35,128 nucleotides of DNA. It comes from a virus. The stretch spans positions 1 through 35,128 of IMG/VR virus record IMGVR_UViG_3300030098_000835. One strand, written 5' to 3'. A program made the translations under genes and the position numbers. Under the pieces are notes generated by a model, which had not been told where the DNA came from, ran no database searches, and worked only from the letters and a program-made list of their open reading frames with translations. Within the stretch, counting starts at the first letter, position 1; each line of letters begins with the position of its first letter. Shown piece by piece: positions 1 to 35,128 of the stretch.

Positions 1-261
1 GATTCTTAATTGATTATTTTCTGCGGTTTGATTAGCCATGGCTTTAACAGATTCAATCATTTCATTTAAGCTTCCACTAGGAGATTGGTAGCTGAAAGTC
101 GCACCCTCGGGAAGTATTAAAGCTTTATCTACTCCTGATTTTAGCCTACTTTGACCTTCTTCTATTCCAGTAAAAACTGGCTGGCCTAACCTGAACCTTG
201 TACTTAGTGCTATCTCAGTCATCGCTATTGCTATATGCAAAGCTGCCCTAGTAACGTCATA
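1..261. repeat. terminal direct repeat, left copy (contig closure)
   Basis: This stretch matches 34868-35128 in the same orientation with only three mismatches, at 67/34934, 142/35009 and 184/35051. It lies inside the portal gene, and the reading frame runs through the join without interruption. The simplest reading is assembly overlap of a circular map, from a circularly permuted or concatemeric phage genome. A true physical terminal repeat is less likely, because it would cut the portal gene. Confidence 0.95.
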
Positions 262-3940: not shown

Positions 3941-4049
3941 TTTTCAACGCTTGATATACGTACACGATTAGTGCTTTTCAGCCTAATCCACCACTACCTA
4001 TCCACTACTCTGGTTTACCCAGCTCCCTCTGCATATCAAAGCGTCAAAA
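3941..4049 (-). ncRNA. candidate structured RNA / multi-stem inverted repeat
   Basis: Two distant arms, 4049-4031 and 3960-3941, pair over about 18 base pairs with two single-base bulges and two G-U pairs in the minus-strand RNA. Enclosed between them are a second hairpin, CTGG-GTAAA-CCAG (4022-4010), and a third, GATTAGGC...GC-A-CTAATC (3988-3966), with a purine-rich unpaired stretch between. Together they form a three-way-junction-like fold. It begins on the stop codon of the kinase gene and ends about 30 bases before the DUF932 promoter. There is no T-run after it, so it is not a standard terminator, and no tRNA features are present. It could be a 3' stabilising element, a small RNA or a protein-binding DNA element. 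Confidence 0.5.
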
Positions 4050-4610
4050 TAATGAAGCCTGAGCAGGGTTAACTGCTCTATTGAATTCTCTATTTAAAAT
4101 GTAATCTATATTAGCGTTCATTTCATTTAAATCATTGTTGTTTAAAACGTGGCACGGGAAAGCGTTTTTAATGTTATCTACAGTAGTTCGTTTAGCCTTT
4201 ATCCATTCTTCGCTCTGACTATCACCTCTTTCTTTATGTCTTTTTTCTAAGATTTCTTTACCAGCTTCTAGAATGATTACTCTCAAATCTGTAGTGAGCA
4301 TAGAGCAGGTTCTAATAAAACTGGGTTTAAATAACCTATCGCCCTCTATATACGCATTATTGAATTCGCCTTTCTGTAAAAATTCTATCGCATCAGGTTG
4401 CACAGCCATAGAAAGCCTATCAGTTCCAGAAAATATTTCACCGCTATCTATGTAAACACCTAAAATAACGTTTTCTATTTTATCATCATGGTGTCCCTTG
4501 ACAAGCTTATACTCAAATTCATTCTTACAGTCAGTTCTTTTTTTGATTTCTTTCATCAAAGTAGATTTTCCAGAACAGGGAACTCCGCCTATTACTGTTA
4601 TATACCCCAC
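4044..4610 (-). CDS. P-loop kinase, putative 5-hydroxymethyluracil-DNA kinase
   Basis: 188-aa P-loop NTPase with Walker A GVPCSGKS (residues 9-16) right at the N-terminus, then GTDRLSM and EGDRLF motifs in the middle. A basic stretch ILEKRHKERGDS near residue 130 may act as the lid. The fold resembles nucleotide kinases. In thymidine-hypermodifying phages a kinase of this class phosphorylates 5-hydroxymethyluracil in DNA to activate it for replacement by an amine or amino acid; I infer that role here from the neighbours. It overlaps the upstream transferase-like gene by 13 bases, which supports coupled synthesis. Alternatives: a deoxynucleoside monophosphate kinase or another small-molecule kinase. 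It is the last gene of the early operon. Confidence 0.7.
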   Translation of the reverse strand: MGYITVIGGVPCSGKSTLMKEIKKRTDCKNEFEYKLVKGHHDDKIENVILGVYIDSGEIFSGTDRLSMAVQPDAIEFLQKGEFNNAYIEGDRLFKPSFIRTCSMLTTDLRVIILEAGKEILEKRHKERGDSQSEEWIKAKRTTVDNIKNAFPCHVLNNNDLNEMNANIDYILNREFNRAVNPAQASLF

Positions 4611-5728
4611 AGCGTCTCCTTTTTAATGTTTTCAAAAAAACTGTTTTCAAAACAATCAAATTCTTTATCCATCATTAAAACTTTTCCCGTTTCTCTAAAG
4701 TAATTTTGTTTAATAGGTTTCAATCCAGGATCACAGGGATTGTCTTCCAACCTTAAATACTTAGGTAAATGTTTTCTCCTGACGTTCCAAAAAAAATCGA
4801 AACACTTACCCCAGTTCTTTTCAGCTTTTATTATTCTTTGGCAAAACATGTCATTGTAGACATTGGGGTACCTTCTGTTTTTCCTATACCAAGACTTATA
4901 TGTGCAAAGCGTAGATTCTAGAGTAAAATAATTTACGTCTTTTATAAAGCTTCTATTAGCAAATCTTGTAGACGCTCTATTAAGTAGCCATTCTCCTAAA
5001 TCTTTGCAGCCTTCTATTACGTCAGGTGTGTGTAATTTGTCTTTCCCGTTCCACAATTCGTTACTTTTATGCTGGTCTAGGTCGTCTCTACCTATAACTT
5101 TTAATAACCCATTCCTATGGCTCATGCTACCAGAGTAATCGTCTAAGAATAAATGGTCAGGTTCTATATTCCTACCCATGATTCTTAAATATTCTAAATA
5201 ACTAAACGTGCTTAACCTACCGTACATAAAAAAGTTATTATACACCTCGTCCCAAGTTTCTTTAAAAGTTTCAAACCTATTAAAATAATCAACTTGGCTT
5301 TCACCTACTAACCCTAGGTAGTTTTTAACCATCTTGACTAAATGCCCTTTCTGGTACCTCCTATCCGTATCGTAATCAAGCTTCCTCCAATTTTCAGAAT
5401 GCCAATTTTCCATTTCAAGTAAATCTACGGTATTGTGGAAAGGAAAATTTTTCCATATTATATAAGTTGTGCACATGTTTTGAGTTACACCGTTTAAATA
5501 AGCTACCCAAAGCTTTTGTTCGTTATCCAATTCATATTCATCACAAAAATAAGGCATTAAATAGTAAACACACCCAGGATGACTTGCGTATTTCAAATGG
5601 AATTCATAGAATTTCATAAACACTTCTTCTCTGTAGTTCGGGTGTCTGAAATCTAAGTTCTTGTCAAGGTCTTTTACGGCTATTGAATTATTAAGTTCTC
5701 CATAAGTGTGTAAGGTTTTATAAGGCAT
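4598..5728 (-). CDS. amino acid:DNA transferase-like (alpha-glutamyl/putrescinyl thymine pyrophosphorylase family) protein
   Basis: 376-aa all-helical protein. The segment LDNEQKLWVAYLNGVTQN (about residues 67-84), then IIWKNFP and a Trp/Asp-rich LDYDTDRRYQKGHLVKMVKN, looks like the ADDT/aGPT-Pplase proteins of hypermodifying phages. Members attach an amino acid or polyamine to activated 5-hydroxymethyl-pyrimidine in DNA. A related family forms the helical domain of hydroxymethyluracil-DNA kinases, so this protein could instead be the substrate-binding partner of the separate P-loop kinase next door. I favour transferase because the kinase-helical-domain signature I remember (ERe.iR...PWT.D) is not seen. 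It overlaps the PLP gene by 11 bases and the kinase by 13. The assignment rests on recalled family patterns and is the step most in need of profile searching. Confidence 0.65.
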   Translation of the reverse strand: MPYKTLHTYGELNNSIAVKDLDKNLDFRHPNYREEVFMKFYEFHLKYASHPGCVYYLMPYFCDEYELDNEQKLWVAYLNGVTQNMCTTYIIWKNFPFHNTVDLLEMENWHSENWRKLDYDTDRRYQKGHLVKMVKNYLGLVGESQVDYFNRFETFKETWDEVYNNFFMYGRLSTFSYLEYLRIMGRNIEPDHLFLDDYSGSMSHRNGLLKVIGRDDLDQHKSNELWNGKDKLHTPDVIEGCKDLGEWLLNRASTRFANRSFIKDVNYFTLESTLCTYKSWYRKNRRYPNVYNDMFCQRIIKAEKNWGKCFDFFWNVRRKHLPKYLRLEDNPCDPGLKPIKQNYFRETGKVLMMDKEFDCFENSFFENIKKETLWGI

Positions 5729-6794
5729 TATATATCCTCGGCTCTGTTGTTATTTGTTTAAAAGCTTTTTCAGGTACTTTATCTAAATCAGGTTCACTAC
5801 CAACAATCCAGAACATAGTGCTACGTTTTTCAAGGTGGGGCAGTTTATCCATTAGGTACGTCATCACCTTTCCTTCGTAGGTCGGGTGTAGTTTTATCCC
5901 GTGATAATTATACGGCATTCTTTGTGAGTATGTAACGTATTTAGTTGAATGTAAATCATAATAATAAAGCTTGATTCTAGGTTTATTAGGCATAGGGTAA
6001 AAAGGGTAGAAATGCGGTGTTTTTATATCTAAATTCAAGCAATTTAACTTAGTATAAGTAGACAACATTAAAAGCCTTTCATTGATGTATTGTATTTTTT
6101 TGGGGCCAATCCCTATCAGGTGAACGTTTAGTTTCTTAGCTTTGTTTTCAGGTTTATTCATGTACTGCTGTAGGCCGTAAAGTATGCTTATAGCTGAATT
6201 GCAAGAACCAGTAGGCACAACTAAATCTTCTATATCTTCAGGCATATTCATCGTCTGGTTACCGCTCAAAGAATGAAAGGTTTCTATTTTACTGTTATCA
6301 TCATCGCTATCTACAGCTATACCGTATTTTAATTCACCAGATTTTGGCGTTGAATTTAATAAGGTTTTAACCCTCCTTTGCAAAACTGGGTTGTAGCCCA
6401 CCTTTATAAAATCTAATTCTGCACCGAAATACGTAGCTAGCTTCATCATATCATTTTTTAAGACAACTTGAGGCTTGGTTGCCCCAACAACATTAATAGA
6501 CTTAATTCCATAATGATAGCAGACCGCTGCAGACATCGGTATTTGCGGAGACAGAACAGAAGCACCGCTGTAAACAGTGTTTATTTTATTTTTATAATAA
6601 TCATTAATAATGAATATACATTGCCTAAGCTTCCCTCCGTTTATAGCACCGTAACCAAGCGGGGCAAAATAATCGTCTCTTTTGAAATGCATACCGCCTA
6701 TGTATTGGACTGGAGTCTCTACGTTTAAATAGTTTTCCCATTTAATTTTATTTCTGTCAATTTCTAAGGTTTTAAATATAGTCTCGTTTTTCAT
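5718..6794 (-). CDS. PLP-dependent enzyme, fold type II (tryptophan synthase beta / ACC deaminase-like)
   Basis: 358 aa. The PLP-binding lysine is probably Lys55 in INGGKLRQ. It is followed by SGASVLSPQIPMSAAVCYHYG (split as residues 76-85 and 86-96), equivalent to the substrate-carboxylate loop of this fold. The phosphate-binding loop is PTGSCNS, residues 194-200. Fold-type-II enzymes carry out beta-elimination, beta-replacement or deamination of amino acids. Sitting between the dioxygenase (one base away) and the transferase-like gene (11-base overlap), it most likely makes the amino acid donor or tailors the amino acid after attachment to DNA. Phages known to use a PLP enzyme here are reported to decarboxylate the adduct, but decarboxylation would be unusual for this fold, so the product may differ. 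The upstream part (residues 200-280) is less conserved-looking. Confidence 0.8.
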   Translation of the reverse strand: MKNETIFKTLEIDRNKIKWENYLNVETPVQYIGGMHFKRDDYFAPLGYGAINGGKLRQCIFIINDYYKNKINTVYSGASVLSPQIPMSAAVCYHYGIKSINVVGATKPQVVLKNDMMKLATYFGAELDFIKVGYNPVLQRRVKTLLNSTPKSGELKYGIAVDSDDDNSKIETFHSLSGNQTMNMPEDIEDLVVPTGSCNSAISILYGLQQYMNKPENKAKKLNVHLIGIGPKKIQYINERLLMLSTYTKLNCLNLDIKTPHFYPFYPMPNKPRIKLYYYDLHSTKYVTYSQRMPYNYHGIKLHPTYEGKVMTYLMDKLPHLEKRSTMFWIVGSEPDLDKVPEKAFKQITTEPRIYNAL

Positions 6795-7700
6795 TTATAT
6801 TATACCTGCGTATTTTCTTAGAACCGCTGTTTTATTTATTTTTATTCTTTCTAATTCTTCGCTTGGCGACTTACACCTAATCATATTTTCTCTGTAATAC
6901 ATTACAAAAGAAATCCTAAGGGGATTTGCACCTGATGGAATTATTTCAGTATTACCGTGCCATTGGTGTACATCTACAAGCAATAAATCACCAGTTCTTA
7001 ATTTTACCCCTATTTTAAATTGAGGTAAAACGAATACCGCACCTTTTATATCTTTGGTGTAAGCGACTAAGTTGCCGAAACCTTTTTCGTAGTCTCCCCT
7101 GTCAGTATGGCAAGCGGTTCTAAAATCTTTATTTACGGTTATAGTGGTAAAAGCAGTGTCAAGTATTCTAAAATTAGGGTGCGTAGCTTCTGCCATCATT
7201 AATTGGTTTCTGTATCTTCCTGGAACCATATCCCTAAAACCTTGGTCTACTTTTTTTATTAGCTCTAGAGATTTTTCCCATTTTTCAACTTTCTGTTTAG
7301 TGAACGCTGTTGTCCTGCAGTAATCGAAATGTGCTGCTCGGTCAAAATAACCCATAATACCGCTTTGTACTGATAATTTAGTTTCAGTCCCAGGTATGTA
7401 AGTTTGGGTGCTTCTTGAAAGTGATCCATCTTTTAAAATCCTCCTTTTCAATTCTCCACCGCTTGCGGGACCTCTAGTGTTAGTTGGCTGTGCTGCGGTC
7501 TCACAATTCAATGCTGCTTTTTTTATTACGTCGTAATCTATGTAATTTTTCCTAAAAAATAATAACGGTTTTCCAAATGAAGTGTAAACATCTACATCTT
7601 CATCAATTAAAACGTCGTAATGGCTGTCGTCTAAAAAAGTATTAGAAAGCGATTCAGTTTCTTGTGTAGTCAGTTTATATTCTACTCGCATTTTATTCAT
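6795..7700 (-). CDS. TET/JBP-family 2-oxoglutarate/Fe(II) DNA base dioxygenase
   Basis: 301 aa. The C-terminal two thirds carry a double-stranded beta-helix oxygenase. The iron ligands are His198 and Asp200 in ACHTDRGD and His248 in DVHQWHGN, and the 2-oxoglutarate-binding arginine is probably Arg262 in NPLRISFV. The order TVNKDFRTACHTDRGD, GFGNL, GAVFVLPQ, GDLLLVDVHQWHGNTE, RISFVMYYR is what is seen in J-binding protein and TET enzymes. These hydroxylate the methyl group of thymine or 5-methylcytosine in DNA. The N-terminal 100 residues are unassigned. It starts eight bases inside the end of the 66-aa ORF and is one base from the PLP gene. No cytosine-C5 methyltransferase or hydroxymethylase gene is visible in this apparently complete genome, so thymine in DNA is the likelier substrate. 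Confidence in the family is high, in the substrate moderate. Confidence 0.85.
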   Translation of the reverse strand: MNKMRVEYKLTTQETESLSNTFLDDSHYDVLIDEDVDVYTSFGKPLLFFRKNYIDYDVIKKAALNCETAAQPTNTRGPASGGELKRRILKDGSLSRSTQTYIPGTETKLSVQSGIMGYFDRAAHFDYCRTTAFTKQKVEKWEKSLELIKKVDQGFRDMVPGRYRNQLMMAEATHPNFRILDTAFTTITVNKDFRTACHTDRGDYEKGFGNLVAYTKDIKGAVFVLPQFKIGVKLRTGDLLLVDVHQWHGNTEIIPSGANPLRISFVMYYRENMIRCKSPSEELERIKINKTAVLRKYAGII

Positions 7701-7893
7701 TTTCTAGCTCTCTCAATATCTTTAATATTCCGTCTGAATAATTATTTATTGATTTTTTTTGACAGTATTTTTCTAATATATAAATTACTTCTTTTTTTTC
7801 TTCCGATGAGAATTCAAACTGTATGTATTCTATTTCAGTAGTTTCTTTTTGCTGGTTGTTTTTAGGGTAATCATATTTAAATAACTCTAGCAT
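7693..7893 (-). CDS. 66-aa acidic hypothetical protein
   Basis: Begins MLELFKYDYPKNN and is rich in Glu and Lys, with predicted helices toward the C-terminus (GILKILRELENE). It overlaps the gene before it by seven bases and the dioxygenase after it by eight, which argues for real, coupled translation. No domain recognised. Because it immediately precedes the dioxygenase it could be an accessory of the modification block, but this is only positional. Confidence 0.55.
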   Translation of the reverse strand: MLELFKYDYPKNNQQKETTEIEYIQFEFSSEEKKEVIYILEKYCQKKSINNYSDGILKILRELENE

Positions 7894-8171
7894 GCTTTCT
7901 CCTTTTGGCAGTTAGGGCAAATTTTCCTAGCTTTACCGTAAGTAGGTATGTTGCCTTTAGGGTACGCCCTCCACCTAATTTCATCTATAAAGTGAGGAAC
8001 CTTACTCCAAACTTTTTTACAAATTACGCATAAAAATATCATTTTGTCAATTTCTATTTTTCTTTTTTCGTGGCTATATGCTCTTTTTTTCACTTTCCAA
8101 TGTTCTCTTTCAGATTTCCTCTCGGTTTTTTTTAATATCCAATCTATGATATGCTCATCCGCCTTATCCAT
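7887..8171 (-). CDS. 94-aa zinc-finger-like hypothetical protein
   Basis: The N-terminal half is highly charged (KKTERKSEREHWKVKKRAYS). The C-terminal half has two CxxC pairs (CVICKKVW and CPNCQKEKAC), which should bind one zinc ion. I chose the ATG that overlaps the previous stop as TGATG (8171); a GTG one codon earlier is possible. Small phage zinc proteins of this type often bind DNA or partner proteins. No specific family recognised. Confidence 0.6.
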   Translation of the reverse strand: MDKADEHIIDWILKKTERKSEREHWKVKKRAYSHEKRKIEIDKMIFLCVICKKVWSKVPHFIDEIRWRAYPKGNIPTYGKARKICPNCQKEKAC

Positions 8172-8941
8172 CACTTGGGCTTTTCGGGTAGATACTCAAC
8201 CGCACAACATGAAGAACCGTTCTTGACCTGCCATTCATACGAAGGGTATTCTTTATTTCCACAGCTAGAACAATAAGCCCTGTAAAACCCTGTATCTAAC
8301 AGCTTGAATTTTGCTATAAATTTATCTATACTTTTTTTACTACTACCGTTCCATTCAATATCATTTGATTTCCACTTTGCCAATCTCCTGCTGATGTCAA
8401 ATGTTTGCTGCATTTCAAACTTCATCTTTTTACCGCCTTCATTTGATTCTGTCCAAAAATCTGTAAATTGTTTTAGCAACGTTTTTGACATATCATGTTT
8501 TTTACAAAGCTTTTCGCACTTTTCTATAAATTCAATTCCTCTTTCTTCTATTGTTTTTACTTTAACCTTATCTTCAACCTTATCTTTATATTTAAGGGTA
8601 TCAGGTACACTATGTAAACCCTTATCATTAAGTCTTTTAATAACGCTCAAATGAGGTTTACTATTTTCTTTTAATTCACCGTATTGAAATTGAATAAATG
8701 AAGGTATGAAATATTGATTTTCTCCTTTGATGTATTCCATTTTGTCAGTTATTTCTTCGGGTAGCTCATCGTAAGTAACTTTTTCCCCTATAAAAAATTC
8801 AGCAGCTTCCCAATCTGAATCCCATATTCCAGCATGGTCACATTTTGTAAGTAAGTAAATCCATATCAATTTATTTTTTGGAGTAAGCCTACGGAACCAC
8901 GCTTTGTCCCAAATTTTAGTATCAACAAATCTTTTAGCCAT
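8171..8941 (-). CDS. putative replication initiation / replisome organiser protein
   Basis: 256 aa. The N-terminus MAKRFVDTKIWDKAWFRRL, followed by KLIWIYLLTKCDHAGIWD and the EFFIGE segment, is the winged-helix start seen in many phage replication initiators. The middle is Lys/Glu-rich and helical (about residues 95-190). The C-terminus carries a CxxC...CC zinc-ribbon-like ending (YCSSCGNKEYPS...SSCC). No helicase or polymerase gene is visible, so the phage would recruit host replication enzymes at an origin through this protein. It overlaps the HNH gene by eight bases. The call rests on N-terminal similarity and context with SSB-like and nuclease genes. Confidence 0.6.
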   Translation of the reverse strand: MAKRFVDTKIWDKAWFRRLTPKNKLIWIYLLTKCDHAGIWDSDWEAAEFFIGEKVTYDELPEEITDKMEYIKGENQYFIPSFIQFQYGELKENSKPHLSVIKRLNDKGLHSVPDTLKYKDKVEDKVKVKTIEERGIEFIEKCEKLCKKHDMSKTLLKQFTDFWTESNEGGKKMKFEMQQTFDISRRLAKWKSNDIEWNGSSKKSIDKFIAKFKLLDTGFYRAYCSSCGNKEYPSYEWQVKNGSSCCAVEYLPEKPK

Positions 8942-11291: not shown

Positions 11292-11542
11292 TATTTATTT
11301 CCCCTTGAGTAATATTTATCAACTGCAAATTTTGTACAATCCGTGTTCCAACCATTAGGATCTTTTAATACTTGAATTATCTCAGGGTGTCTTTGTTGAT
11401 GTTCTGACATTTCTTTATCTATGTCCTTGAATAGGTCATATAAAGTGTCCCCAACAGCACAAGTAAACCTCATAGCAATCTCACCTTCATACATTATTTC
11501 AGCATGATATTTATAATCATGCGGTACTCTTTTTTCACTCAT
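11291..11542 (-). CDS. 83-aa hypothetical protein
   Basis: Starts MSEKRVPHDYKYHAEIMYEG after a GGGAG ribosome site. A mixed alpha/beta pattern and a single Cys (TDCTKF) are visible, but no known motif. It overlaps the deformylase stop by eight bases and the next gene by one. Confidence 0.6.
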   Translation of the reverse strand: MSEKRVPHDYKYHAEIMYEGEIAMRFTCAVGDTLYDLFKDIDKEMSEHQQRHPEIIQVLKDPNGWNTDCTKFAVDKYYSRGNK

Positions 11543-11984
11543 TTTTCTCCCCTTTGTCTGATATTAGAACCCCATTCAAGTGGTCTATTTCGTGTTGAAT
11601 TATGATAGCATTCAACCCTTCAAATTTTTCGGTATGCTTATTGCCCTGCCTATCTTCATAATCTACTTCTACCCAATCATGCCTAAAAACTTTATATTGA
11701 GCATTGGGAATTGATAGGCAACCCTCAACCCCCTTAATGGTTTTATCTGAAACTCTCAAGATAGTGGGGTTCGCAAAGAAACCCCACCTGTCATCTATTT
11801 TAGCAATAAAAGCGTAATGGTTCATATTTAATTGGTTAGCGGCAAAACCTAAAGCGTTCTTTCTTTTAGTCATAGTTTTAAACCACATTCTAGAATAGAC
11901 CTTACCGTGCTGCCCTTCTTCTACCCTATCCAGCACCCGCCTAAGGATGCTATCTGATTTAGTGTTTTTTACTATCCCCCTCAC
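11535..11984 (-). CDS. def: peptide deformylase
   Basis: 149 aa from the chosen GTG start. This GTG follows AGGAGG by six bases and shares a base with the preceding TAG; a GTG six codons earlier would place the ribosome site inside the gene. All three family motifs are present: GFAANQL (46-52, usually GxGLAAxQ), EGCLSIP (87-93) with metal ligand Cys89, and QHEIDHLNG with His131, catalytic Glu132 and His135. The enzyme removes the formyl group from new protein N-termini. Phage copies are typically shorter than bacterial ones and lack the C-terminal extension, as here. It probably raises deformylation capacity for phage proteins during infection. Confidence 0.93.
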   Translation of the reverse strand: MRGIVKNTKSDSILRRVLDRVEEGQHGKVYSRMWFKTMTKRKNALGFAANQLNMNHYAFIAKIDDRWGFFANPTILRVSDKTIKGVEGCLSIPNAQYKVFRHDWVEVDYEDRQGNKHTEKFEGLNAIIIQHEIDHLNGVLISDKGEKNE

Positions 11985-12193
11985 TACTCGCCTCCTACCC
12001 ACTCTAAATATCGATTCATCATTTCTATCGCACTAGTGCTAACTTTTTCGATGCTTTTATTTCCTTCTACCCAATTATCCCAACTGTCACGCCATAAGCG
12101 AATAGTAACTATGTCGTCATTAAAGTTAGTACTCATTGCCCACCTGAAACCGTTAGACTTAGCAAATTCTACGAACTTTTTAAATTGCCTCAC
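11984..12193 (-). CDS. 69-aa hypothetical protein (GTG start)
   Basis: Begins with GTG at 12193, eight bases after AGGGGG, and ends one base into the deformylase start. The sequence MRQFKKFVEFAKSNGFRWAM is followed by a Trp-rich middle (LWRDSWDNWVEG) and a helical end. It looks like a compact alpha/beta protein. No family recognised. Confidence 0.55.
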   Translation of the reverse strand: MRQFKKFVEFAKSNGFRWAMSTNFNDDIVTIRLWRDSWDNWVEGNKSIEKVSTSAIEMMNRYLEWVGGE

Positions 12194-21998: not shown

Positions 21999-22219
21999 GC
22001 CCTCGCCTTTGGTATTAGATAAGGATCTTCAATTATTTCAAAATCAAGGCTCCTCATAGATTCTATGATTGTAATCAGCATTTCTTTTTCGTCAATGCTT
22101 GTATTGTCTAAAATAATATTTGTTAAATCTATCTGCATTGATAATTCTTTGCACTTCATAATTAATTCAAAAGCGTTAAAATTTACATTGTCAGTGTCTA
22201 TTTCTTTGATCTTTTCCAT
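21995..22219 (-). CDS. 74-aa acidic hypothetical protein
   Basis: MEKIKEIDTDNVNFNAFELI, helical and acidic, ending DPYLIPKARA. Its start lies 22 bases inside the end of the metallophosphoesterase gene and it overlaps the next gene by four bases (ATGA), so translation is probably coupled. No motif recognised. Confidence 0.55.
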   Translation of the reverse strand: MEKIKEIDTDNVNFNAFELIMKCKELSMQIDLTNIILDNTSIDEKEMLITIIESMRSLDFEIIEDPYLIPKARA

Positions 22220-23244
22220 GTTAAATATTCTGCCGCTTCATACGGATTGAAAATTGTGGTAACAAGCCTATTGTCATGATCTTCGTATTGTGGATCAATA
22301 ATTGTAACTGGGGCGTTAAAAATATTCTTGTCATCTAAACCCATTTTATCTGCATAACTGTCCATTATTTTAAAACTTGCAACTTGCAACGCATGTGAAA
22401 TTAAACCCGAAGCAGGGTCTTTTAAAACTTGATAACCAGAAATGTGAGTATGACCGCAAGTTAAAATATGGTCTTTCCAACCCATTTGAGCAGCTTTAGC
22501 TACACCGTGCGCAGTGTTCCACATAGAAAATCCTTTAAAATAATGCCTAGCATTGACTCTAATATTTCTTTTATTTGGAAACCTTAAATTCAGTCTAGCT
22601 CCCCATTTTTCATAAACCCCTTGATGGTCTCGCATTATAAAATCTAAGGGATCTCCGTCCCCGCTCCAGACGTCATGATTTCCAGCAACTAGATAAAGCC
22701 ACTCAACGCTATTAACAAAATGTTCTGTTAATCTCCACGATTCTTTGGCACTTGTAGACTGTTGGCCGTATAGATAAGACAACCTACCTATCCAATTATT
22801 TTGAACGTCTCCCAAGTTTCCAGCAAACATTCCTTCCGTTTTATTTATCAAATTACATAAAGAATATATTTCAGAAATGTTAGTTCCGTCATCATCTATG
22901 TGTGGATCTCCAAAATGGCATATCCCAATAACGCCTTCAGTTTTTATGTCTATATTAATTAATTTTCTAGACTCTTTAGCTCTTACCTGTATTGCGTACT
23001 TCTTTTTCCTATGCTCAATTAGCTGGTCAATAGGCATAAATTCAGGCTCCATTTCTTCCGTGATGAAATTTGCTTTTTCTATAATTTTTGGTGCCACCGT
23101 TCTCCTACCACAGTTATTGCAAACCCACTGTTGCTTTTTGCTTTTTGCCCTATAAAGGAAACCGCTTTTATGTATTGCCCTGCTTCCACAATTAGGGCAT
23201 GCGATAATATTTCCATCTACATCTTTTACTATTTCCTCAGCCAT
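22198..23244 (-). CDS. calcineurin-like metallophosphoesterase with N-terminal zinc ribbon
   Basis: 348 aa. Residues 14-50 form a zinc ribbon with Cys16, Cys19, Cys42 and Cys45, like the ribbons of transposases. From about 105 a metallophosphoesterase follows: Asp113-x-His115 (GDPHID), Asp146 in GNLGDVQNN, Asn189-His190-Asp191 in GNHD, a metal histidine at 246 (AHGV) and His265/His267 in GHTH. All metal ligands appear intact, so it should hydrolyse a phosphodiester or phosphomonoester, plausibly nucleic acid given the ribbon. It sits between lysis-type and tail genes and overlaps the lysozyme-like gene by eight bases. Comparable phage proteins are annotated as DNA repair exonuclease-like. Substrate unknown. 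Confidence 0.85.
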   Translation of the reverse strand: MAEEIVKDVDGNIIACPNCGSRAIHKSGFLYRAKSKKQQWVCNNCGRRTVAPKIIEKANFITEEMEPEFMPIDQLIEHRKKKYAIQVRAKESRKLINIDIKTEGVIGICHFGDPHIDDDGTNISEIYSLCNLINKTEGMFAGNLGDVQNNWIGRLSYLYGQQSTSAKESWRLTEHFVNSVEWLYLVAGNHDVWSGDGDPLDFIMRDHQGVYEKWGARLNLRFPNKRNIRVNARHYFKGFSMWNTAHGVAKAAQMGWKDHILTCGHTHISGYQVLKDPASGLISHALQVASFKIMDSYADKMGLDDKNIFNAPVTIIDPQYEDHDNRLVTTIFNPYEAAEYLTWKRSKK

Positions 23245-34455: not shown

Positions 34456-35128
34456 GCTTCCTTAATCCTTCAAATGCGGGTTGTTTAGGTTGGGTGGCTT
34501 CTACCTCTGCTTGCGTTTCTTCTATAACCTCACCTAGTTTATTTTCTATTTCTTCTTCCGTCATGTCTGGATTAAAATATAATAGTAAATCTTTTTTAGA
34601 CATAATACCTTTGGATAGTTTCCAATCAAGCCAAGCCCTTTCTTCTTGAGGCGACATAGGGTAGGATACTTCTCCAAAATCTACTGCGTAATCTTCGCTT
34701 AAATTTATTACTGCGTGAACTTCTAATATCCTTTTATCTACCTCATACCTACTATGTTCCCATTCCCTAAATAAAGACTCATCACTCTTTCTCGCCTCAA
34801 GGTTTTCTATTTCAAGTATGCGTAATGCTTCTCCGCTTGGTGCATTGCCTCCAGATTCACCCCACCTGATTCTTAATTGATTATTTTCTGCGGTTTGATT
34901 AGCCATGGCTTTAACAGATTCAATCATTTCATTCAAGCTTCCACTAGGAGATTGGTAGCTGAAAGTCGCACCCTCGGGAAGTATTAAAGCTTTATCTACT
35001 CCTGATTTCAGCCTACTTTGACCTTCTTCTATTCCAGTAAAAACTGGCTGACCTAACCTGAACCTTGTACTTAGTGCTATCTCAGTCATCGCTATTGCTA
35101 TATGCAAAGCTGCCCTAGTAACGTCATA
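34436..35128 (-). CDS. portal protein, C-terminal part (5' end beyond the window edge, continues at 936-1)
   Basis: The frame is open to the right edge of the window. The first 87 codons repeat the end of the left fragment, so only 34867-34436 adds new sequence. The unique C-terminal part includes EEERAWLDWKLSKGIMSKKD and an acidic PDMTEEEIENKLGEVIEETQ region that may form the crown. The stop TAA lies at 34436. Joined length is about 455 aa. An apparent internal start at 35107 is a TTG inside the ORF and not a real start. Confidence 0.85.
   Translation of the reverse strand, partial: YDVTRAALHIAIAMTEIALSTRFRLGQPVFTGIEEGQSRLKSGVDKALILPEGATFSYQSPSGSLNEMIESVKAMANQTAENNQLRIRWGESGGNAPSGEALRILEIENLEARKSDESLFREWEHSRYEVDKRILEVHAVINLSEDYAVDFGEVSYPMSPQEERAWLDWKLSKGIMSKKDLLLYFNPDMTEEEIENKLGEVIEETQAEVEATQPKQPAFEGLRKLGAVSS
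34868..35128. repeat. terminal direct repeat, right copy (contig closure)
   Basis: Second copy of the sequence at 1-261, three mismatches in 261 bases. All three mismatches fall on third codon positions of the portal frame and are synonymous (two Leu, one Gly). This points to two closely related strains in the sampled population rather than random sequencing error. Confidence 0.95.

Follow-up and report, generated by a model that had tools for sequence, protein, structure and literature searches.

A putative DNA hypermodification cassette in a tailed phage

The 35,128-base virus contig IMGVR_UViG_3300030098_000835 from IMG/VR, classed as linear and analyzed here over its whole length (the window), carries a putative DNA hypermodification cassette of four adjacent genes. 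They encode a TET/JBP dioxygenase (hereafter TET), a pyridoxal phosphate (PLP) enzyme, an amino acid:DNA transferase (ADDT), and a small P-loop kinase (Table 1). An earlier reading, made from the sequence alone, had described these open reading frames (ORFs) as a tightly coupled block spanning positions 4044 to 7700, and the ORF listing agrees in coordinates and places all four on the minus strand. The coupling is seen in overlaps of 11 bases between the PLP and ADDT genes and 13 bases between the ADDT and kinase genes, but the TET and PLP genes are separated by 0 bases from stop to start, not by the single base first noted. The kinase gene begins with a GTG codon preceded by AAGGAG.

The dioxygenase matches the Tet_JBP family (PF12851) with an E value of 6.8e-22 and 77.9 bits (curated cut-off 34.9), and the four residues of its predicted HxD...H...R site are intact and invariant across 41 relatives. 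Among solved structures, its AlphaFold model (mean predicted local distance difference test score, pLDDT, of 94.5) is best matched by TET2 (Z 21.3, 256 aligned residues) and NgTET1 (Z 19.5); AlkB/FTO-type enzymes reach no more than Z ~14. These model matches and invariant residues identify a double-stranded beta-helix with an HxD...H iron site and a 2-oxoglutarate-binding arginine; a sequence-only PDB search with the TET protein alone returned nothing useful. In some phage records, such as NC_042035, NC_023554, KF301602, and KU682439, TETs bear the label of a queuine tRNA-ribosyltransferase or an SNF2 DNA repair protein.

The all-helical transferase matches phrog_3271 (E 1.9e-69) and is 28% identical to orf247 of Salmonella phage Vi01 (E 1e-25). 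The window protein has no match in Pfam and so lies below the curated PF18724 cut-off of 26.2 bits, which its homologs pass (Zemanar with 36.3 bits, the PWKp5/ViI type with 198 bits); it is therefore a divergent homolog rather than a direct hit. Its AlphaFold model (pLDDT 95.4) aligns over 257 residues with PDB 8z2m, the 5-phosphomethyl-2′-deoxyuridine (5-phosphomethyl-dU) glycinyltransferase of phage PaMx11, at Z 17.6, the next fold following at Z ~10, and its best BFVD match is named ADDT. Searching PDB sequences with the ADDT profile was unproductive. The earlier proposal hinged on this helical protein falling within the ADDT family, and the PF18724 matches of its homologs and the glycinyltransferase fold place it there.

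For the PLP enzyme, the match to phrog_3650 is strong (E 3.6e-94), and 38% identity to Vi01 orf226 extends over 383 columns, nearly the full length (E 6e-82). The predicted PLP lysine and phosphate loop are present and invariant in 31 relatives; full-length homology together with these conserved elements places the protein in the orf226 family. In the ViI pathway reconstituted by Lee and colleagues (2018 and 2021), orf226 is said to be the DNA-adduct decarboxylase. The window enzyme also weakly matches D-cysteine desulfhydrase/1-aminocyclopropane-1-carboxylate (ACC) deaminase, and matches to it occur in 346 phage records, mostly of the ViI type. The PHROG matches of the cassette proteins further include phrog_24024 (E 5.4e-76).

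The kinase matches Ploopntkinase3 (PF18751; E 3.6e-10, 40.1 bits, cut-off 27), and the anticipated Walker A motif lies at residues 9 to 16. Beside the PF18751 assignment, 122 of 129 TET-cassette kinases match at E<1e-5, and 0 kinases of hydroxymethylase-type (ViI-type) phages do. The window kinase has no match to PF18748 (HMUDK_HMUD1), the family of 5-hydroxymethyl-2′-deoxyuridine (5hmdU) DNA kinases, and we rejected its membership in that known family. PF18748 is present in the ViI-type records W04, W06, and W07, the first of which also has HMUDK_hel; overall, it occurs in 0 of the 36 TET-type records tested versus 9 of 14 others (5 above cut-off). The kinase profile that we built also gives low-scoring matches to nucleotide kinases in hydroxymethylase-type phages, so its match there is no evidence of a shared family. 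In phage records, cassette kinases go under the name of terminase small subunit or adenylate kinase, and phrog_800 bears the same terminase label. Overall, the profile search that had been suggested as a check gave direct matches for PF12851 and PF18751 and placed ADDT through its homologs, but the PLP enzyme stayed below the cut-off of Pfam PALP (E 0.0026) and no HMUDK_hel appeared.

Table 1. Positions of the cassette genes and other features in the window
Feature	Position	Strand	Basis or remark
TET/JBP 2-oxoglutarate/Fe(II) dioxygenase, 301 aa	6795..7700	-	PF12851, fold; H198-x-D200, H248, R262
Fold-type-II PLP enzyme, 358 aa; predicted tailoring step	5718..6794	-	phrog_3650; K55, G196-S197 phosphate loop
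ADDT (amino acid:DNA transferase, formerly aGPT-Pplase2), 376 aa, all helical	4598..5728	-	phrog_3271, fold
Small P-loop kinase, 188 aa	4044..4610	-	PF18751; Walker A GVPCSGKS
66-aa ORF	7693..7893	-	8-base overlap with TET start; likely co-transcribed with cassette
Terminal direct repeat, left copy	1..261		258/261 identical to 34868-35128
Terminal direct repeat, right copy	34868..35128

Conservation and variation of the cassette

Relatives were gathered as 80 viral contigs retrieved by TET similarity and 150 further loci retrieved with alignments of ADDT and PLP sequences (A1/A2); a scan of viral contigs with the single window ADDT or PLP sequence found no relatives, and the alignments did recover them. 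Profiles were built from the retrieved loci, and the 173 ADDT loci were grouped into 72 clusters at 80% identity. On most of the 80 contigs fetched by TET, this gene adjoins either ADDT and the kinase or a TET-associated glycosyltransferase (PF20691). TET, PLP, ADDT, and kinase genes also lie next to one another in 28 clusters from other viral contigs, and TET, ADDT, and kinase genes in 23 more; the kinase is present in 51 of the 52 clusters with both TET and ADDT. Gene orders include TET-PLP-ADDT-KIN, TET-ADDT-PLP-KIN, and PLP-ADDT-KIN-TET, among others; the genes have thus stayed associated despite rearrangement. Genome contigs yielded only two, both from metagenome-assembled actinomycete genomes, one with ADDT and PLP genes and one with ADDT and kinase genes.

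The tailoring genes vary around this core. TET, ADDT, and kinase alone, without a PLP gene, make up 16 clusters, 4 clusters have an added protein with weak resemblance to flavin adenine dinucleotide (FAD)-binding domains, and 3 have a glutamine-amidotransferase-like protein, mostly plus GNAT. The last arrangement is seen in L031:7971-11247 and ~30 similar loci, which carry TET, the amidotransferase-like protein, a GNAT acetyltransferase, ADDT, and kinase, and it points to a distinct thymine adduct, one that is amidated or acetylated. In L051:7959-10880 and L061:8001-10900, TET is followed by a short ADDT, a 262-residue protein with a weak FAD/NAD-binding match, and the kinase, possibly a TET-led flavin-enzyme branch of thymidine hypermodification. 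Caulobacter phage Cr30 (L006, 5419-11892) clusters TET, ADDT, a gene resembling TET-associated glycosyltransferases, and inositol-1-phosphate synthase, with a kinase nearby in the record; a mixed sugar/amino-acid pathway is possible there.

Apparent exchange between two entry modules

A 261-base direct repeat with 3 mismatches bounds the window and was missed by the IMG/VR end-repeat test. Because of this repeat and a portal-like ORF that runs on across the joined contig ends, the window is probably the full genome of a tailed phage, ~34.87 kb long and circularly permuted, and it has genes for terminase, tape measure, tail spike, and head proteins. Given the near-identity of the two repeat copies, we rejected the idea of a mere fragment, in which absences would be uninformative. 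A profile search detected no C5-cytosine methylase in the window genome, and neither PF00303 (thymidylate synthase (TS)/dUMP hydroxymethylase) nor PF18723 (HMUDK_hel) was detected there; control genomes likewise gave no PF18723 match, and the same model matched ViI-type records. These absences are informative because the genome looks complete.

The same pattern extends across the family. Within the fetched regions, a TS-like gene or HMUDK_hel occurs in 0 of 52 TET clusters versus 11 of 20 clusters without TET (Fisher p 5.6e-8), and loci fetched by ADDT or PLP only give 0/39 versus 8/16 (p 1.1e-5), p values that are upper-end statements since the clusters are not fully independent. In a search of whole records, 41 of the 43 picked for TET-type cassettes show TET and none of these 41 has PF00303 or PF18723; all 7 hydroxymethylase-type records have both families and 0/7 have PF12851. 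In two cassettes, neither entry enzyme turned up: L106, whose contig breaks off within the PLP gene, and the 93.8-kb contig L186. Work on pelagiphages notes that M6-like phages never carry the thymidylate-synthase homolog without aGPT-Pplase1 (PMC9599517), and aGPT-Pplase1 is the HMUDK_hel family by Montesquieu annotation.

The ADDT tree makes the better argument. On it, the TET/TS label requires 5 changes, of which at least 4 are forced by well-supported branches, and 500 label shuffles gave a mean of 11 changes and none as low as that observed. The five-member TET clade that includes the window is sister to a clade in which the labeled members are of TS type. This was a quick tree, and three of its terminal branches are long, which leaves the exact swap count soft, and each swap can be read in either direction; judged from these sequences, the two entry modules appear to have been swapped at least four times. 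The proposal that TET takes the place of nucleotide-pool hydroxymethylation thus gains support from the lack of a TS-like enzyme in the window and in the 41 TET records, from mutual exclusion, and from these swaps.

A predicted route to hypermodified thymine

We regard it as probable that the cassette hypermodifies thymine starting from finished DNA, with TET acting first and the kinase, ADDT, and PLP enzyme following in that order, the chemistry being predicted throughout. TET would hydroxylate the thymine methyl group in replicated phage DNA to give 5-hydroxymethyluracil (5hmU), which the small P-loop kinase would convert to 5-phosphomethyl-dU. ADDT would then replace the phosphate by a free amino acid, as its family and fold suggest and as is known for its relatives, and the PLP enzyme would trim the adduct, most simply by decarboxylation. 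The product would be an aminoalkyl base, for example 5-(2-aminoethoxy)methyl-dU were the amino acid serine, and a positively charged base of this kind would be expected to stop restriction and other DNA-directed nucleases. The sequence-only reading had arrived at the same succession of thymine, 5hmU, phosphorylated base, amino-acid adduct, and tailored base, which families, folds, and context support. Two points refine that reading: the kinase does not belong to PF18748, and no HMUDK_hel partner was detected.

On the simplest reading, TET and the small kinase would jointly stand in for the nucleotide-pool hydroxymethylase and the 5hmdU kinase/HMUDK_hel of ViI-type phages and deliver the same intermediate, 5-phosphomethyl-dU, on replicated DNA. 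It seems fairly likely to us that the phage TET is a true, JBP-like thymine-DNA hydroxylase working with a second, hitherto uncharacterized 5hmU-DNA kinase family, that this pair has been exchanged with the hydroxymethylase/HMUDK_hel module, in either direction, at least four times, and that finished DNA can serve as the sole starting point for decorating thymine with amino acids.

Several observations weigh against this proposal. The third residue after the iron-binding aspartate of the window TET is an aspartate, as in NgTet1, a 5-methylcytosine (5mC) oxidase. Close TET relatives adjoin TET-associated glycosyltransferases, a family described for 5-hydroxymethylcytosine (5hmC), and, to our knowledge, the only published phage TET activity, that of Burke and colleagues in 2021, is on 5mC. 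The kinase falls outside the characterized 5hmdU kinase family. Finally, a 93.8-kb contig (L186) carries PLP-ADDT-KIN at 5917-8701 of the locus and is without PF12851, PF00303, and PF18723.

One alternative keeps the hydroxylation and aminoacylation of thymine and has the PLP enzyme supply or prepare free amino acid rather than trim the adduct on DNA. Its fold-type-II relatives D-cysteine desulfhydrase and ACC deaminase use free amino acids, and the gene is missing from many cassettes, among them the 16 clusters of TET, ADDT, and kinase only, which means that ADDT can function in its absence. The near full-length similarity to Vi01 orf226 argues the other way, and we consider such a supply role unlikely.

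A second alternative, which we judge quite improbable, is that TET acts on 5mC that comes from the host or from an unrecognized phage enzyme and that the cassette makes an amino-acid-decorated cytosine. The aspartate at the NgTet1-like recognition position and the glycosyltransferases beside related TETs would fit it, as would the work of Burke et al. 2021, which, as far as its citation in PMC11347163 conveys, concerns a 5mC-directed phage TET in C5-cytosine hypermodification. The recognition position, however, is Asp, Asn, or Ser among cassettes with identical partner genes; we rejected it as a discriminator between thymine and 5mC. A C5-methylase is found neither in the apparently complete genome nor in 84 of the 91 TET-bearing records (7/91 have one), in sister phages the TS-like/HMUDK_hel module feeds the same ADDT/PLP set, and ADDT has the fold of an enzyme acting on 5-phosphomethyl-dU. 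The lack of a C5-methylase, the exclusion between entry modules, and the ADDT tree favor thymine over 5mC as the predicted TET substrate, and interchange with a 5hmU-making module and the ADDT fold would likewise speak against 5mC.

That the small P-loop protein is a deoxynucleoside monophosphate kinase of host or phage or a terminase-like ATPase, and not a DNA-base kinase, would accord with its Pfam label of nucleotide kinase, the phrog_800 label, and the lack of PF18748 but is improbable given its near-constant presence beside TET and ADDT, and a pool kinase would find no modified nucleotide if hydroxylation occurs in DNA. Since PF18748 and HMUDK_hel are absent from TET cassettes, no other candidate for phosphorylation was found there.

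Some records join TET to other modification genes. PF20691 follows close TET relatives in L001, L007, L010, L014, and others, mostly without a C5-methylase in the record, and might there glycosylate 5hmU, giving a base-J-like mark, rather than 5hmC. The 80-kb contig L133, among the few records in which TET, ADDT, and kinase are joined by a clear C5-methylase (PF00145, E 4e-38), may modify both bases.

Other features of the window

The 66-residue ORF upstream of TET has no family match in Pfam and PHROG profile searches; because it overlaps the TET start, the transcript probably begins further upstream. A peptide deformylase gene lies at 11535-12002 (phrog_2890, E 9.9e-30). Amid the tail genes, 22198-23244 encodes a protein that resembles DNA repair exonucleases (phrog_7339, E 2e-42) and is joined at its N terminus to a zinc-ribbon-like segment (a weak IS1-type zinc-binding match).

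Relationship to known systems and implications

The window cassette shares ADDT and the PLP enzyme with the ViI/M6-type pathway of Vi01, and both probably pass through a phosphorylated hydroxymethyl base. It differs in having TET and a PF18751-like kinase in place of the TS-like hydroxymethylase, PF18748 kinase, and HMUDK_hel. The ViI-type module makes 5hmdU before replication (PMC6449724), and Vi01 DNA carries 5-(2-aminoethoxy)methyl-dU (5-NeOmdU), on which ~60% of commercial endonucleases fail (PMC11721090); the known 5hmdU DNA kinase acts on DNA and blocks restriction (PMC7653180). PaMx11, the source of the glycinyltransferase gp46/PUGT, is an M6-like phage, and this protein shares the ADDT fold at 11% identity. 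By family (PF12851) rather than by direct sequence comparison, TET resembles trypanosome JBP1/JBP2, for which the reaction is the same as that predicted here, thymine in DNA to 5hmU; base J is then glucosylated, whereas the window would use amino-acid chemistry.

In Rhodococcus phage Tonitrus, genes for ParB-like, TET-like, aGPT-Pplase2, and 5-hmU kinase proteins have been proposed as a thymidine hypermodification system (PMC11955845). Like the window, Tonitrus and mycobacteriophages such as Zemanar group a TET-like gene, ADDT, and a P-loop kinase near the genome end; unlike it, these blocks have no PLP gene, a ParB-like gene adjoins TET, and their TET is very distant and of the Asn lineage. 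The system of Burke et al. 2021, so far as it is described where cited, also sets a phage TET/JBP dioxygenase within a DNA-modification cluster, but there the base is C5-cytosine, whereas in the window glycosyltransferases are replaced by ADDT, kinase, and PLP genes and no C5-methylase was detected. Our literature search found no account of a TET, PLP, ADDT, and kinase cassette or of repeated module swaps, within a coverage that leaves out key primary papers. The TET-ADDT-kinase set had already been annotated in Tonitrus. Iyer et al. reportedly predicted links between TET/JBP and these hypermodification families in 2013, and Lee et al. are said to have described metagenomic permutations of hypermodification genes in 2021.

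If the proposed route is correct, thymine could be hypermodified without a reprogrammed nucleotide pool: the deoxynucleoside triphosphates would stay normal, and ADDT and PLP enzymes of the ViI type would be reused. The thymine activity of phage TETs would become directly testable, and the small kinases would form a new candidate DNA-base kinase family that could serve alongside the known 5hmdU DNA kinase. Annotations in isolated phages would be corrected, both for TETs that bear a queuine tRNA-ribosyltransferase or SNF2 label and for kinases labeled as terminase small subunit. Dozens of cassettes with varied tailoring enzymes (PLP, possibly flavin-dependent, and amidotransferase plus acetyltransferase) could then be mined for new DNA bases.

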